This document shows positions 1-6,384 of a stretch of DNA of 64,000 nucleotides, in pieces. The stretch covers positions 496,001 to 560,000 of the forward strand of contig NZ_CP100445.1 of assembly GCF_024227435.1 (NCBI RefSeq). Reading direction: 5' to 3'. The notes under the pieces were generated by a model, which was not told the origin of the DNA, searched no databases, and worked only from the letters and a program-made list of their open reading frames with translations. The first letter of the stretch is position 1. Every line of letters starts with the position of its first letter. Origin of the DNA: Natrinema caseinilyticum (GTDB lineage Archaea; Halobacteriota; Halobacteria; Halobacteriales; Natrialbaceae). The position numbers and the translations under genes were made by a program.

Positions 1-176
1 TCTGCGAGGGCATCGAGGAGCGCGTCGCGGTCTCCGTCGCCGAAGTCCGGGAAGTACGCGTGGGGGTCGTCGCCGAGTAGTTCGACGCCGGCGTAGCCGT
101 GATCCGCGATCCGGCGAACCGCCTCGGGGAGGTCGTAGCGGGTGTACGCGTTCGTCGAGAAAGCGAGTTCGACCAT
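1..176 (-). CDS. Sugar phosphate isomerase/epimerase family protein (5' part only)
   Basis: Only the N-terminal 58 residues lie in the window; the gene runs off the left edge. The start is the ATG at 176. The visible protein (MVELAFSTNAYTRYDLPEAV, then an IADHGYAGVELL segment) matches the N-terminus of the isomerase encoded at 1543-2373 almost position for position. That is the first beta strand and helix of a xylose-isomerase-like TIM barrel. It is the last visible gene of a minus-strand run TatD - isomerase - UbiA - isomerase, so the cluster holds two paralogous isomerases. The substrate is unknown; the family interconverts keto and aldo sugars or cyclitols. Confidence 0.85.
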   Translation of the reverse strand, partial: MVELAFSTNAYTRYDLPEAVRRIADHGYAGVELLGDDPHAYFPDFGDGDRDALLDALA

Positions 177-395
177 CGATTCAGTCCTCCTACACCGGTG
201 GACCACTAATTCGTTGGCCCGGCGGCGTCGATCACGGGCAGCCACACGGCTGGTTCGAGTCTCGATCGAGGTGCTATCGGGTGGCGCTCGTCGTCGGCCG
301 GTCGGGTACGGATGCGGCGGACCGCACGAACCGCGGTGTGAACCGCGGCCGGTCGGGTCGAACCGTGGTCGCGGCGTGAGGCCGCACGCGAGCGG

Positions 396-1541
396 TCAGG
401 TCACGTCGAACATCCGGCCGAGACCCACCGCCGGAACGAGAAAGACACCGGCAGCAACCCCCCAGCGGATTCCGGCTGCCGCGGCGAAGCCGGCGTCGAG
501 CAACACGAGTCCGAGGACGCACCCGCCGACCGCCGGACCGACGGTACTCGGAACCGGATCGGCGTACGCCGCGCGCAGGGGACGTCCGACCCACCAGCAA
601 AACGCCGTCGCGAACGCGAGCGCGACGAGAATCTCGAGCCCCGACGACTCGACGCCGACGAGGTACACGCAGAGCGCGACGACCGCCAGGACCGCACCCC
701 CGGAGGCGACCGCGACAGCACGTCGATTGTCCCCCTCGGATTCTCGTGCCGCCATGAACGTGACGGCGCTGATGTAGCCGGTGACGACCGCCGGAACCAC
801 GACCAGTCGGGCGGGAATCTCGAGCGCAGCGCTTCCGGCAGCGGTCGCTCCGAGGACGACGTTCAGTCCTCGAGTCGCACCCATCGCGATGAATCCGGGG
901 GCCGATCCCTTCAGGAGGCCGTCGTAGGCGAGGATCGCGATGGCCACCGATCCGGCGACGACGGCTGCGGGGCCGCCCGCGGCGACGAAGGCGATGCCGA
1001 CGGCGACGAAAAGGAGCGCGAATCCGAGTTCGAACGCGGTGCGCCGGTCGATCCGTCCCGACGGAATCGGCCGATTCGGCCGCTCTCGAGCGTCGAGAGG
1101 CGCGTCGAACGCGTCGTTGAGGGTCGTCCCGCCCGCGTACAGGAAGACGGACCCGAGCGACAGTAACGCGACCGCCGACGGAGACGGGGTAGCGCCGGCG
1201 ACCGACACTACCGCCGCACCGAGGATCACGTCCGGCGGTGCGGTAAAGAGGTTCGGCACGCGGACCAGTTCGGCGTACGCACCGAGCGCTGGACGCGAAT
1301 CACCGGTCTCCGAGTCACGCACATCTGCGTCACGTGAATCACCGCCAACTGTCGGACGCGAGTCAGCAGCGTCCGATCCGAGCGAGCCTGTGTCGACCGG
1401 CTCACGCGAATCGTTCTCACCCGTTTCACGCGAGTTGCTGTCGGTCGATCCCCGCGGATCGCGCTCGCCGGGCGATTCCCACCGGTCGCCGTCGACCGGA
1501 CCTCCCCTTTCGGAGCGATCCGACGGCGCACCGCCGGCCAC
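396..1541 (-). CDS. UbiA-family prenyltransferase, EboC-like, with acidic N-terminal extension
   Basis: Membrane prenyltransferase of 381 residues. The conserved part starts near residue 86 and has about eight hydrophobic segments. The first Asp-rich motif is NDAFDAPLD at 142-150, followed by the usual RPNRPIPSGRI stretch; a YDGLLKG motif near 206 fits the second. These bind Mg2+ and the prenyl diphosphate. The first 85 residues are a low-complexity acidic extension with repeated DSR(E/P/D) units, absent from ordinary UbiA proteins. The GTG start at 1541 is 1 bp past the stop of the upstream isomerase, so translation is probably coupled. The acceptor is unknown. The company of TatD, isomerase and phosphatase genes points to an EboC-type enzyme rather than a quinone or archaeol enzyme. 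Confidence 0.85.
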   Translation of the reverse strand: MAGGAPSDRSERGGPVDGDRWESPGERDPRGSTDSNSRETGENDSREPVDTGSLGSDAADSRPTVGGDSRDADVRDSETGDSRPALGAYAELVRVPNLFTAPPDVILGAAVVSVAGATPSPSAVALLSLGSVFLYAGGTTLNDAFDAPLDARERPNRPIPSGRIDRRTAFELGFALLFVAVGIAFVAAGGPAAVVAGSVAIAILAYDGLLKGSAPGFIAMGATRGLNVVLGATAAGSAALEIPARLVVVPAVVTGYISAVTFMAARESEGDNRRAVAVASGGAVLAVVALCVYLVGVESSGLEILVALAFATAFCWWVGRPLRAAYADPVPSTVGPAVGGCVLGLVLLDAGFAAAAGIRWGVAAGVFLVPAVGLGRMFDVT

Positions 1542-1542
1542 C

Positions 1543-2373
1543 CTACGCCCACCCGCGTTCCTCGAGGAAGGCCATCGCCTCCCGCGCGGTCTCGATCGGC
1601 GTTTCCTCGTAGGGATAGAGTTCGACCGTGACGAAGCCGTCGTAGCCTCGGGTCTCGAGTTCGCCGAGGAACGCGTCGACGTCCATCGCGCCGTCGCCGA
1701 GCTGGGTGTGCTCGTGGGTCCGATCGGCCGGGATGTCCTCTAGGTGGTAGTGACTCGTGTATTCCCAGAGCGGCTCGACCAGTTCGGCCGGGTTCTCGCC
1801 GACGCAGTAGAAGTGGCCGGCGTCGAAGTTGCAGCGGACGCGCTCGGAGTCGACGCGCTCGACCAGTTCCAGAAACTCGTCCGCGGTCTCGATCAACAGA
1901 TCGGGCTCGGGCTCGACGAGCAGGTCGACGTCCACCTGTTCGGCTTTCGCCAGGACGGTCTCGAGGGCGTCGACGAAGGTCTCTATCGCCCATTCGCGCG
2001 ATTTTCGCTCGGGTATCGGTCCGCCGGGCTCGATCGAGATGTAGGGCAGGTCGAGCGCCGCCGCGGTCTCGAGCGCGGCGAGGGTGTAGTCGATTCGCTC
2101 CCGTCGATACGACTCGTCCGGCTCGATGTAGGAGGGGTGATGGAAGTCCTCGATCGCGGTAAGCATGAACGCATTACCGTTGCTAACGCCGATTTCGTTC
2201 CGCTCGAGGGCGTCTTCGACGCCTGCGCGTTCCGCGTCCGTCGCGGCCGGCGGGTAGAGGTGTGGCTCGTCGAACAGCAGTTCGACGCCGTCGTATCCCG
2301 CATCGGCGATGGCTTCGATGGCGTCCGCGAGGGGATACTCGCGAAAGGCGTTGGTGGAGAACCCGAACCGCAT
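1543..2373 (-). CDS. Sugar phosphate isomerase/epimerase (xylose isomerase-like TIM barrel)
   Basis: 276 residues, the usual length for this family. It begins MRFGFSTNAFREYPLADAIE and has the spaced acidic and His metal ligands of AP endonuclease/xylose-isomerase barrels: a YISIEPGG segment, LVEPEPDLL, a CNFDAGHFYCVGE segment and HLEDIP near the C-terminus. It is likely cytosolic and Mn/Mg dependent. The ATG at 2373 lies 1 bp past the TatD gene stop, and its own stop is 1 bp before the UbiA start, so the three form a tight operon. The role is probably that of the TIM-barrel member of ebo-type clusters. The true substrate cannot be read from sequence. Confidence 0.88.
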   Translation of the reverse strand: MRFGFSTNAFREYPLADAIEAIADAGYDGVELLFDEPHLYPPAATDAERAGVEDALERNEIGVSNGNAFMLTAIEDFHHPSYIEPDESYRRERIDYTLAALETAAALDLPYISIEPGGPIPERKSREWAIETFVDALETVLAKAEQVDVDLLVEPEPDLLIETADEFLELVERVDSERVRCNFDAGHFYCVGENPAELVEPLWEYTSHYHLEDIPADRTHEHTQLGDGAMDVDAFLGELETRGYDGFVTVELYPYEETPIETAREAMAFLEERGWA

Positions 2374-2374
2374 C

Positions 2375-3175
2375 TCAGGCCTCGTAGTCGAAGTTCGGGG
2401 ACTGGTCGAAGAACTCGTAGGGGTTGTCGAAGACGACTTTACGGACCTCCTCGCGGTCCCAGCCCCGGTCGATCATCCGGTCGCGGGCCTTCGGGACGGC
2501 GAGCGGGTCCGAGGGATCCCAGTCGGCGGCGCTGTTGAAGATCATGTTGTCGGTCCCGTACTCCTCGAGAAGGTCGATCGCCGACGCCGCCTCGATCTTG
2601 CCCGGGTAGAGCGTGAAGCCGATCCAGCAGTCCGTTCGGGTCGAAATGTCGATCGTGTTCTCGGTGTTGTGATCGATGACGATCCGCTCCTCGGTCACTC
2701 CCATCTCCTCGATGATCTCGACGATGCGCTCGGTGCCGGACGGCTTGTCGGTGTGGGGCGTGTGGACGATGACGGGAAGCTCCCTGTCCTCCGCGAGTTC
2801 GAGCTGTCGGCGGAACGCCCACTCCTCGTCGTCCGTGACCTGGTCGAAACCGATTTCGCCGACGCCGACGACGGGGTCGCGATCGAGGTACTCCGGAATG
2901 CGGTCTACGACCTCCTCGGCCATCTCTCGATAGTTCGCCTCTTTCGGCTCGAGACCGATCGTGACGTAGTGGTCCATGTTGGCGGCCCGCTCTGCTCGAT
3001 CGGTTTCGTGGTCGATGATCTGTTCGAAGTAATCGAAGAACGCACCGGCATGGTGTTTGTCTTGACCGCTCCAGAACGCAGGTTCGATACAGCACTCGAT
3101 GCCCGCGTGTCGCGCTCGCCGATAGTCCTCGGCTGAACGCGATACCATATGCATATGAGGATCGATAATCCGCAT
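2375..3175 (-). CDS. TatD-family metal-dependent hydrolase (EboB-like)
   Basis: 267 residues from the ATG at 3175, chosen because the conserved first strand follows directly (MRIIDPHMHM); a longer frame to 3292 adds only unconserved sequence. The metal-site residues are in family order: D5, H7 and H9, E107 in VGEIGF, H138 in VIVHTPH, H169 in IDHN and D218 in SAADWD. TatD enzymes are metal-dependent hydrolases, often nucleases or small-molecule hydrolases. As first gene of the minus-strand operon, divergent from inositol-phosphate synthase, it corresponds to EboB of ebo-type clusters. A second, distant TatD relative is at 55081-55932. Confidence 0.85.
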   Translation of the reverse strand: MRIIDPHMHMVSRSAEDYRRARHAGIECCIEPAFWSGQDKHHAGAFFDYFEQIIDHETDRAERAANMDHYVTIGLEPKEANYREMAEEVVDRIPEYLDRDPVVGVGEIGFDQVTDDEEWAFRRQLELAEDRELPVIVHTPHTDKPSGTERIVEIIEEMGVTEERIVIDHNTENTIDISTRTDCWIGFTLYPGKIEAASAIDLLEEYGTDNMIFNSAADWDPSDPLAVPKARDRMIDRGWDREEVRKVVFDNPYEFFDQSPNFDYEA

Positions 3176-3497
3176 AGGCGCTGGTCGAGGGATGAACGGT
3201 TTGGTCCACCGATCGTTCGAACGGCAAATCCGAGGTTGATGACGGCGGATCGACCGGCCCTCACAGCGGAATCCGATCTTGTGACCGGTCAAACCGGTCT
3301 TACTTCCGCTACGCGAGTCATAACGAAAGTCGTCCGGTTCCGACTCTCGGTGGAATGTCCGCTACGGAACGAGCGAGAGACGCGGGGCGTCACGGTCTCG
3401 GAGTGGGGTGGCTGCGAATCGTCCAGTCCGCGCGCGACGACCGCGAACCCGAATCGTCACGACCGCGCGACCGCCCGTGGATATCGAACGATCGCAG
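3176..3497. other. Divergent intergenic region of the ebo-like cluster
   Basis: 322 bp between the TatD operon (leftward) and inositol-phosphate synthase (rightward). It holds one clear perfect inverted repeat at 3283-3299, listed separately. No convincing small gene was seen. Open frames here are extensions of the two flanking genes. Confidence 0.6.
3283..3299. promoter_or_regulatory. Perfect inverted repeat in a divergent promoter (putative operator)
   Basis: GACCGGT - CAA - ACCGGTC is a perfect 7-3-7 palindrome about 107 bp upstream of the TatD start and 199 bp upstream of the synthase start. The position suits a dimeric regulator controlling both operons. The regulator is unknown, and short GC-rich palindromes also arise by chance. 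Confidence 0.4.
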
Positions 3498-4712
3498 ATG
3501 AACGGAGGGCGTGAGTCCGCCGCCGAGGACCGAACCGGCGTGTGGCTCGTCGGCGCGCGCGGCAACGTCGCGACGACGGCCATCGTCGGTGCCCGCGCGA
3601 TCGCCGAGGGGGTGACCGACGGCACCGGCATGGTAACCGAACGCGAGCCGGTCTCGAGTCTCGACCTGCCGCCGGTCGAGGGGTTCGTCTTCGGGGGCCA
3701 CGACATCGAACCGGAGTCGCTCCTCGCTCAGGCGGAGCGCCAACGCGATCGAAACGGTGTTCCTGACCAGGAGACACTCGCGGCGGTCAGAGACGACCTG
3801 ACGGCGATCGACGAACGGATCCAGGTCGGAACGGCCGTCAACTGCGGCGCGGCGGTCTCCGAAGAGAGCGAACGGATCGACGAATCGCTCGGAATCCGGA
3901 CCGTCGTCGAGCAGATCCGCGACGACTACGAAACGTTCCGAAAGTATCACGATCTCGAACGGCTCGTGGTCGTCAACGTGGCGTCGACCGAACCCGAACT
4001 GGCGGAGCCGGAGCGATACGCCAGTCGCGACGCGCTCGAACGGGCGATCGACGAGGACGACCGCGAGTTGCCCGCGAGCGTTCTCTACGCCTACGCTGCG
4101 ATCGACGCCAGTCATCCCTTCGTCAACTTCACGCCGAGTGCCGCCAACTCGCTCGGCGGAATCCGCGAACTCGCGGCCGCGAAATCCGTCCCGCACATGG
4201 GACGCGACGCGAAGACCGGCGAAACGCTCGTCAAGTCCGCGCTCGCGCCGATGTTCGCCGGCCGAAACCTGCAGGTGCTGAGCTGGGAGGGACACAACAT
4301 TCTGGGAAACAGAGACGGCCTCGTTCTGGAAGACGACGCGAACGCAGCGGGCAAGCTCTCGAGCAAGGGCGACGTCCTCGATTCGATACTGCCGGAAATC
4401 GGTCACAACCGTGTCCGAATCGACTACACCCCGTCGCTCGCGGACTGGAAAACGGCGTGGGACTACATCCATTTCCAGGGCTTCCTCGAGACGGAAATGA
4501 CGATGCAGTTCACCTGGGAGGGATCGGACTCGGCGCTGGCCGCCCCGCTCGTCCTCGATCTCGTGCGCCTCGTCGCTCACGCCGACGAACGGGGTGAGGG
4601 AGGACTCCAGCCCCAGCTCGCGTCGTTTTTCAAGGCGCCGATCGGGGTCGACGAGCACGACCTCTCCCGACAGATGGAGCGACTGTCCGACTACGCGGAC
4701 CGAAATCACTGA
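3498..4712 (+). CDS. myo-Inositol-1-phosphate synthase family protein
   Basis: 404 residues from the ATG at 3498, just before the Rossmann segment GARGNVATT (19-27). The family converts glucose-6-phosphate to inositol-1-phosphate by NAD+-dependent oxidation, aldol cyclisation and reduction. Signature regions are present: SAANSLGGIRELA, PHMGRDAKTGETLVKSALA (active-site Lys/Asp region) and WEGHNILGNRDG, which matches the SYNHLGNNDG element. Length fits archaeal members (about 390). It lies divergent to the UbiA/isomerase/TatD operon and just before a phosphatase-like gene, so its product may feed a cyclitol or inositol-linked metabolite. A housekeeping inositol-lipid role is the alternative. 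Confidence 0.9.
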   Translation: MNGGRESAAEDRTGVWLVGARGNVATTAIVGARAIAEGVTDGTGMVTEREPVSSLDLPPVEGFVFGGHDIEPESLLAQAERQRDRNGVPDQETLAAVRDDLTAIDERIQVGTAVNCGAAVSEESERIDESLGIRTVVEQIRDDYETFRKYHDLERLVVVNVASTEPELAEPERYASRDALERAIDEDDRELPASVLYAYAAIDASHPFVNFTPSAANSLGGIRELAAAKSVPHMGRDAKTGETLVKSALAPMFAGRNLQVLSWEGHNILGNRDGLVLEDDANAAGKLSSKGDVLDSILPEIGHNRVRIDYTPSLADWKTAWDYIHFQGFLETEMTMQFTWEGSDSALAAPLVLDLVRLVAHADERGEGGLQPQLASFFKAPIGVDEHDLSRQMERLSDYADRNH

Positions 4713-4834
4713 CACCGACGGCCCGGTATTCGATTCGACCGACCATCGACCACGGCGATTGCCGACCGATCGATTCGACCGACTCGCGACGGACCAACGA
4801 TTCACGCCAAAACGCACCCCGAACCTGCCATCCC

Positions 4835-6244
4835 ATGACCGACTCATCGATTTCCGAGACCAGCGAACCGGCCGGCCGAACCATCGTCCTCGACGTCGTC
4901 GGCCTGCAACCTCAGCACATCGACGCCGATCGAACGCCGACGCTCGAGTCGTTCTTCGCGAGCGAGAGCGTCCGACCACTTCGGCCGACGTTCCCGGCGG
5001 TGACCGTTCCCGCACAGACGACGCTTGCGACGGGGCAACGGCCGGACACGCACGGCGACGTCTCCAGCGGGGAGTTCGATCGCGAGCGTCAGACCGCCGA
5101 GTTCTGGGAACGCGACCGCGACGGTCGCGATCGGATCTGGGAAACCGCAAGTGACGAAGCGGGACTGATAACCGGCGTCCTGAACTTCCAGCACCTGATC
5201 GGAACCAGCGCCGACGTGGCCGTGACCCCGTCTCCGATCGAAGACGAAAACAACGACATTCTCGAGATGAACTGCTGGACGAACCCGGACGGCTTCTACG
5301 ACGACCTGCGCGAGGAGTTGAATCACTTCCCGCTGCACAACTACTGGGGTCCCGGCGCGAACGAGGACGGAAGTCGATGGATTCTCGCGGCCGCTCGCGA
5401 GGCGATCGAGCGGTTCGACCCCGACCTGCTCTGGGTCTACGTCCCGCATCTGGACTACGTCGGACAGAGCAGCGGGCCGGGAAGCGATGCCTTCCGCGCG
5501 GAACTGTCGGTCGTCGACGACCTGCTCGAGGAGTTTCTCACCCACCTCACGGAGACCGATCGGTGGGACGAAACGGCCCTCGTCCTCGTCAACGAATACG
5601 GATTCCACGACGTCGACCGACCGGTGTTCCCGAACCGGGCGCTCCGCGAAGCCGGGCTCCTCGAGGTAGCTGGAGACGGTGAGGCCGCGATCGGCGATTC
5701 GGCCGCGTTTGCGATGGTCGATCACCAGATCGCACACGTCTACGCCGACGAGGGGTCGGTCGAGGCGGCTCGCGACGTGTTCGAGTCCCTGGAGGGGGTC
5801 GACGACGTTCTCGGACGACGCGGCAAGGCAGATCGGGGAATCGACCACCCCAATGCGGGCGAGATCGTGCTCGTCGCGAATCGGGACGCCTGGTTCCAGT
5901 ACTACTGGTGGGACGACCCCGAGAACGCGCCGCCGTACGCGACGGAGATGGACATCCACGCGAAACCGGGCTTCGACCCGTGCGAGCTGTTCTTCGGTGA
6001 GGAGGGACTCGTCTCGCTCGACGCGTCGAAGGTCGGCGGTTCACACGGGCGCGTCGACGAATCGGCGTACGGCAGCTTCGGCCTCGGCGGTCCGGCGGCT
6101 CCCGCCCTCGAAGGTGACGAACCGGTCGACGCGACCGACGTCACCCCGACGATACTCGATCTGCTCGGACTCGAGGGAACCCTCTCGATGGAACTCGAGG
6201 GGACGTCACTCCGCAATTCCGAGGGGGAGCGAAGAAGTACGTGA
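4835..6244 (+). CDS. Alkaline phosphatase superfamily, nucleotide pyrophosphatase/phosphodiesterase-like (EboF-like)
   Basis: 469 residues with the phosphodiesterase/NPP fold markers: metal-binding D20 in VLDVVG; nucleophile segment FPAVTVPAQTTLATG with likely nucleophile T57; VPHLDYVGQ with D207; a VDHQIAHVYAD stretch; and GGSHGRVD near residue 400. The chain ends with TPTILDLLGLEG, typical of this group. No signal peptide is evident, so a cytosolic phospho- or pyrophosphohydrolase is likely. It starts 122 bp after the inositol-phosphate synthase stop and is probably co-transcribed. The combination with UbiA, TatD and isomerases matches the phosphatase member of ebo-type clusters. The substrate is unknown. 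Confidence 0.85.
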   Translation: MTDSSISETSEPAGRTIVLDVVGLQPQHIDADRTPTLESFFASESVRPLRPTFPAVTVPAQTTLATGQRPDTHGDVSSGEFDRERQTAEFWERDRDGRDRIWETASDEAGLITGVLNFQHLIGTSADVAVTPSPIEDENNDILEMNCWTNPDGFYDDLREELNHFPLHNYWGPGANEDGSRWILAAAREAIERFDPDLLWVYVPHLDYVGQSSGPGSDAFRAELSVVDDLLEEFLTHLTETDRWDETALVLVNEYGFHDVDRPVFPNRALREAGLLEVAGDGEAAIGDSAAFAMVDHQIAHVYADEGSVEAARDVFESLEGVDDVLGRRGKADRGIDHPNAGEIVLVANRDAWFQYYWWDDPENAPPYATEMDIHAKPGFDPCELFFGEEGLVSLDASKVGGSHGRVDESAYGSFGLGGPAAPALEGDEPVDATDVTPTILDLLGLEGTLSMELEGTSLRNSEGERRST

Positions 6245-6309: not shown

Positions 6310-6384
6310 GCTCCGTTGGTGTAGTCCGGCCAATCATTTCGGCCTTTCGAGCCGATGACCTGGGTTCAAATCCCAGACGGAGCA
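6310..6384 (+). tRNA. tRNA-Glu (anticodon TTC)
   Basis: The acceptor stem GCTCCGT (6310-6316) pairs with ACGGAGC (6377-6383), with discriminator A at 6384 and no encoded CCA. The anticodon stem TCGGC/GCCGA encloses the loop CTTTCGA, anticodon TTC at 6346-6348. The T arm is CTGGG-TTCAAAT-CCCAG (6360-6376). The D arm is weak, as is common for this tRNA. No intron is seen. Confidence 0.95.

Follow-up and report, generated by a model that had tools for sequence, protein, structure and literature searches.

A haloarchaeal ebo-type gene cluster with a myo-inositol-1-phosphate synthase apparently in the place of EboD

The genome of the haloarchaeon Natrinema caseinilyticum contains a gene cluster related to the ebo (EDB) clusters of bacteria and eustigmatophyte plastids, and in this cluster a myo-inositol-1-phosphate synthase (MIPS) seems to fill the place of EboD. 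The genes are at the start of a 64,000-nucleotide stretch of contig NZ_CP100445.1 (positions 496,001 to 560,000, forward strand), termed the window here. An original prediction, made from the sequence before the present analysis, had read this locus as ebo-like with MIPS in the place of EboD. The cluster is probably a MIPS-type archaeal variant of ebo, in which a cyclitol formed from glucose 6-phosphate would be linked to an isoprenoid in the membrane. The papers on ebo that were consulted cover bacteria and algal plastids only and do not mention inositol; a cyclitol-isoprenoid product or a role in metabolite export has been proposed, with no compound known (PMC5133447, PMC6282210, PMC9235831). 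A literature search, incomplete in its coverage, found no paper on an archaeal ebo cluster or on an exchange of MIPS and EboD.

Five full-length cluster genes lie inside the window and a sixth, that of TIM_B, only begins there. The features are as follows.

1–176 (start only), minus strand: TIM_B, xylose-isomerase-like TIM barrel (PF01261, E = 4.7e-43)
396–1541, minus strand: UbiA-superfamily prenyltransferase of the EboC/SCO3242 kind (EboC model NF035940 and tree)
1543–2373, minus strand: TIM_A, xylose-isomerase-like TIM barrel (family match, structure model)
2375–3175, minus strand: TatD-family amidohydrolase, EboB-like (family match and identity to ebo TatD)
3300–3324, minus strand: conserved element of 25 bp, GTTATGACTCGCGTAGCGGAAGTAA, between the divergent TatD and MIPS genes
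3498–4712, plus strand: MIPS (PF07994, 2e-48; PF01658, 3e-32)
4835–6244, plus strand: NPP-type enzyme, EboF-like (PF01663, 4.5e-46)

All genes named in the original prediction are thus present as full-length frames of the families it gave, with TIM_B running past the left edge. The minus-strand unit TatD-TIM_A-UbiA-TIM_B is divergent from the plus-strand MIPS-NPP unit, and 322 bp separate the two. The tight operon that had been proposed holds for TatD, TIM_A and UbiA, which have single-nucleotide gaps between them (at 2374 and 1542), and does not hold for TIM_B, which is 219 bp downstream of UbiA. About 58 first codons of TIM_B are in the window (176 to 1), and the gene continues for about 670 bp past the left edge (L008:10176-9328). 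The start of MIPS is uncertain, with an alternative GTG at 3408, and NPP begins 122 bp past the end of MIPS.

The best profile for UbiA is EboC (NF035940; E = 1.6e-57), although its 195 bits fall short of the curated cut-off, 250. The SCO3242 model is second (8e-48), archaeol-type models score 7e-19 or weaker, and the nearest solved relative, digeranylgeranylglyceryl phosphate (DGGGP) synthase, matches at merely E = 8.5e-8. In a tree of UbiA proteins all those from ebo clusters, haloarchaeal and thaumarchaeal ones included, form one clade (support 98/96), from which six further UbiA paralogs encoded in this genome are excluded. Within the clade, the haloarchaeal and actinobacterial members are sister groups (90/78). 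Profiles and tree together rule out a quinone, heme or archaeol enzyme (DGGGP synthase, MenA/UbiA, heme O synthase). The prenyltransferase domain occupies 1286–399 of the window; the N-terminal stretch of about 85 residues (1287–1541) is of low complexity with repeated DSR-like residues, and the true start codon of this frame is uncertain.

Two further proteins are of ebo type. TatD is 43–45% identical across its full length to TatD proteins of bacterial ebo clusters, and other haloarchaeal TatD proteins match it only at E = 1e-13 or weaker. The NPP protein is 37–38% identical to NPPs of bacterial clusters, and its structure model, with a predicted local distance difference test score (pLDDT) of 91.9, has the NPP fold by fold search. 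UbiA as EboC-like, TatD as EboB-like and NPP as EboF-like bear out the assignment to ebo.

Other ebo components were not found. No DHQ_synthase match of the kind that EboD would give rose above the cut-off in any of the 14 haloarchaeal genomes that carry the cluster, while the control was detected in 11 of them. As to the small protein EboA or EboG, EboA queries detect it in most bacterial loci and in no archaeal locus; the EboA profile NF035938 has no match in the 14 genomes, where its control is also undetected. The original prediction had looked to the sequence left of the window for EboA and EboD, and neither is present in the leftward extension of the locus. It had also set the TIM-barrel isomerases beside EboE. 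Both are about 280 residues long, as compared with about 380 for EboE, and score 22–25 bits against a cut-off of 250, which rejects them as EboE. They are related instead to an extra isomerase of MIPS-type bacterial clusters: the two barrels match each other at 39% and the additional isomerase in actinobacteria at 29–32%.

Evidence for an exchange comes from bacteria. A set of annotated records, extended by loci from a collection scan, holds 65 complete bacterial clusters. MIPS is present in 43 of these and EboD in 20, two have neither, and none has both. The extra TIM-barrel isomerase is found in all 43 MIPS clusters and in one of the 20 EboD clusters. Because MIPS and EboD never occur together and the extra isomerase always accompanies MIPS, it appears that MIPS stands in for EboD and that the extra isomerase belongs to an inositol route. 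Annotated Streptomyces plasmids show the order MIPS-UbiA-isomerase-EboA-TatD-EboE-NPP, without EboD. Clusters of Mycetohabitans, Deinococcus, Azospirillum, Ketogulonicigenium, Roseivivax and Aureibacter have EboD and lack MIPS. The predicted replacement of EboD by MIPS therefore agrees with the mutual exclusion of the two genes. The exchange is not peculiar to archaea, since MIPS is present in nearly all complete clusters of actinobacteria. It may be added that a ScyD/ScyE-family gene, a family name also met in scytonemin biosynthesis, is immediately upstream of one MIPS-type cluster in Streptomyces (L057:5373-6572).

The haloarchaeal locus has the composition of this MIPS-type (SCO3242) variant: MIPS next to EboC, EboB and EboF proteins and an extra PF01261 isomerase, without EboD. 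It shares with the actinobacterial clusters the sister relationship of UbiA. The actinobacteria, however, retain EboA and EboE in one co-directional operon, whereas the haloarchaea have two divergent units and neither gene. Relative to the ebo/EDB cluster eboABCDEF, the haloarchaeal cluster has the EboB-like TatD, EboC-like UbiA, EboF-like NPP and TIM isomerase, together with tight clustering and a patchy distribution consistent with horizontal spread; it differs in having MIPS for EboD and two short TIM barrels for EboE, and in lacking EboA.

The cluster is conserved as a unit in Halobacteria. UbiA, MIPS and TatD all have their strong matches in one and the same set of 14 among 145 genomes, well separated from background. 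If genomes were independent, two genes would hit the same 14 with a probability of about 1e-19, although relatedness raises the true figure. The MIPS/NPP unit is together with TatD-TIM_A-UbiA at 13 of the 14 loci. In a wider sample MIPS is found in 54 of 391 genomes. The 40 further MIPS loci from this sample include 31 with the full set of TatD, TIM_A, UbiA, MIPS and NPP, six with some ebo neighbours (several of these at contig ends) and three with MIPS alone. When these are added to the first 14 (13 full and one split, in genome G020), the full set is present at 44 of 54 loci and at least one ebo neighbour at 50. TIM_B is at nearly all haloarchaeal loci. It had been reasoned that the ebo interpretation would fall if UbiA grouped with quinone or archaeol enzymes and the genes were not co-conserved; UbiA falls with EboC instead, and across Halobacteria the genes are conserved together.

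Plasmid-borne copies of the cluster (in Halobaculum, Natronococcus and Halocatena) and its scattered distribution suggest horizontal spread in the haloarchaea. Haloferax volcanii has a MIPS (HVO_B0213 in PMC8305020); the plasmid matches included no record of this species. Several irregular loci were also seen. In the split cluster of G020 (L149, L150, L048), MIPS is about 240 kb from TatD-TIM_A-UbiA and a bacterial-type EboF-like gene is on another contig. A species of the same genus as N. caseinilyticum has a 3′ remnant of NPP and no other cluster gene, a decayed cluster (L151, G028:C1:1325538-1325927). The NPP gene has an internal stop in one genome (G120:C1:2473967-2475280) and a two-piece match in another (G032:C1:782721-784124); each may be a sequencing error, an alignment break or decay.

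The solved enzyme closest to the cluster MIPS is that of Archaeoglobus fulgidus (AF_1794, 1u1i; E = 3.3e-84), to which it is similar over its full length, and the catalytic positions N255, K274, K278, K306, D332 and K367 of that enzyme are all conserved. With these residues kept, formation of inositol 1-phosphate is likely. In a MIPS tree from which the canonical type was left out, the haloarchaeal proteins form a clade (100/100) adjoining an actinobacterial and Rokubacterial clade with moderate support (92/58), and the haloarchaeal and actinobacterial cluster proteins are apart from the stand-alone MIPS of EboD-type genomes (100/100).

MIPS could be looked at as a housekeeping neighbour that serves archaetidylinositol-type lipids, with the ebo-like genes unrelated to it. 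Haloarchaeal lipids with inositol head groups have been reported (PMC8305020); moreover, some haloarchaeal MIPS genes are outside the cluster and the Haloarcula pellucida cluster has no MIPS. The conservation data make this improbable, as ebo genes adjoin MIPS at all but a few of the 54 loci and MIPS of this kind is undetectable in most Halobacteria. In addition, actinobacteria with the cluster hold a second, canonical and far more distant MIPS beside the cluster one. No second MIPS was found elsewhere in the N. caseinilyticum genome.

The EboF-like proteins have an altered metal site. At the positions of zinc ligands D257 and H258 of Xac NPP, all 107 proteins have Glu and Tyr, and at that of H214 there is Gln in 101 and Leu in six. 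We take the ligand numbering (H214, D257, H258) from what is known of the family. The nucleophilic Thr is present in 106 of 107, and D210 and H363 are kept. The alteration seems to be a family trait, and with the site rewired in all 107 these proteins are probably not ordinary two-zinc phosphatases. TIM_A and TIM_B each retain four residues that, going by what is known of the family, should bind the metal in PF01261 epimerases; in TIM_A the probable ligands are the invariant E154, D184, H210 and E251. The AlphaFold2 model of TIM_A (pLDDT 93.9) has ketose 3-epimerases and IolI as its nearest folds. Fold searches of TIM_A and EboF returned the expected families and indicated no specific substrate.

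Such resemblances would also fit a sugar or inositol catabolic module, in which the isomerases, hydrolase and phosphodiesterase degrade a cyclitol or glycoside, with UbiA present only incidentally. PF01261 barrels do resemble sugar epimerases and IolI, and Gfo/Idh oxidoreductases or ABC transporters adjoin some loci. This is very unlikely, however, given a conserved core that has no transporter or dehydrogenase and includes both a biosynthetic MIPS and an integral-membrane UbiA.

For a biosynthetic MIPS-type cluster, we infer a pathway whose steps, with their order and substrates, and whose product and role would be as follows. From glucose 6-phosphate MIPS would form inositol 1-phosphate by cyclisation and so replace EboD as the source of a polyhydroxylated ring, which the metal-dependent TIM-barrel isomerases and TatD would modify. 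The EboF-like enzyme would act on a phosphoester via its unusual metal site, and the EboC-like UbiA in the membrane would add an isoprenyl chain to the product. The lipid-linked cyclitol may stay in the membrane or help to carry a metabolite across it. A related explanation is that the cluster takes part in genuine ebo metabolite traffic, with the cyclitol merely part of a lipid carrier for some other compound to be exported; the scytonemin monomer is a case for which this has been proposed. This is possible, if less probable than a cyclitol lipid as such: ebo genes are found in many kinds of organisms and neighbourhoods, but haloarchaea are without EboA and EboE, and no shared cargo genes were seen at their loci.

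Related clusters are found in other Archaea. Nitrosopelagicus and Nitrososphaerales have TatD-TIM_A-EboC-NPP plus a further TIM barrel, with no EboA or EboD, and the four genes are all adjacent at nine of 12 further thaumarchaeal loci that were inspected, each of which has a related EboC. These clusters resemble the haloarchaeal one in the four shared genes, in the absence of EboA, EboD and EboE, and in a TIM_A that is 44% identical. They differ in that MIPS is not at the locus and that a zinc dehydrogenase often adjoins. The dehydrogenase next to Nitrosopumilales clusters is a zinc-dependent MDR enzyme that could act on a cyclitol (L084:12795-13823; L202-L205). In the NPP tree archaeal proteins, both haloarchaeal and thaumarchaeal, separate from all bacterial ones (100/99), while EboC joins haloarchaea with actinobacteria; the cluster thus has a mixed history.

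Several observations weigh against a MIPS-type isoprenoid-cyclitol pathway. The first Asp-rich motif of EboC proteins is kept, but the second is mostly lost, with one Glu retained, and ordinary prenyl-diphosphate transfer is therefore not assured. The bacterial clusters of MIPS type, 43 in all, come almost entirely from actinobacteria, Gemmatirosa being another case, so that the evidence for the exchange depends on a small number of independent events (Actinobacteria, Gemmatirosa, Halobacteria). EboA, EboD and EboE are all absent in haloarchaea. In the two thaumarchaeal genomes checked, MIPS is away from the cluster, and the single sequence that was read belongs to the canonical type. No ebo gene adjoins MIPS at four of the 54 haloarchaeal loci. 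MIPS is missing in Haloarcula pellucida, which has the five remaining genes, and from the locus of Haladaptatus pallidirubidus. On a Halomarina plasmid, a MIPS of haloarchaeal type is among glycosyltransferases and outside any ebo cluster (L216:9010-10254).

The 25-bp element GTTATGACTCGCGTAGCGGAAGTAA in the intergenic region is a candidate regulatory site, judged from its conservation. Its degenerate pattern has only one match in the whole genome. Within the same family, the element recurs with six or fewer mismatches at five further haloarchaeal loci, and at a sixth by alignment; it was not found in other families. As to the surroundings, a tRNA-Glu (6310–6384) comes after the NPP gene, and to the left, past TIM_B, there are genes for an FAA hydrolase, an MBL-fold protein and Topo VI.

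As far as could be found, no compound has been named as the ebo product of any organism, partly because the substrate of EboD has only been guessed. The MIPS swap gives this unsolved pathway a definite first molecule, and since the first reaction of the MIPS-type variant is characterised, the product can be revealed directly by tracing inositol or glucose. The range of possible chemistry is narrowed by the rewired metal site of EboF and the degeneration of the second EboC motif. The findings also extend ebo to Archaea, marine ammonia oxidisers included. A bolder view, which we hold only tentatively and consider rather doubtful, is that the EboD and MIPS types are one widespread pathway of Bacteria and at least two archaeal phyla, which would make a dedicated isoprenoid-cyclitol membrane lipid and may represent a new class of carrier or membrane-anchored metabolite.
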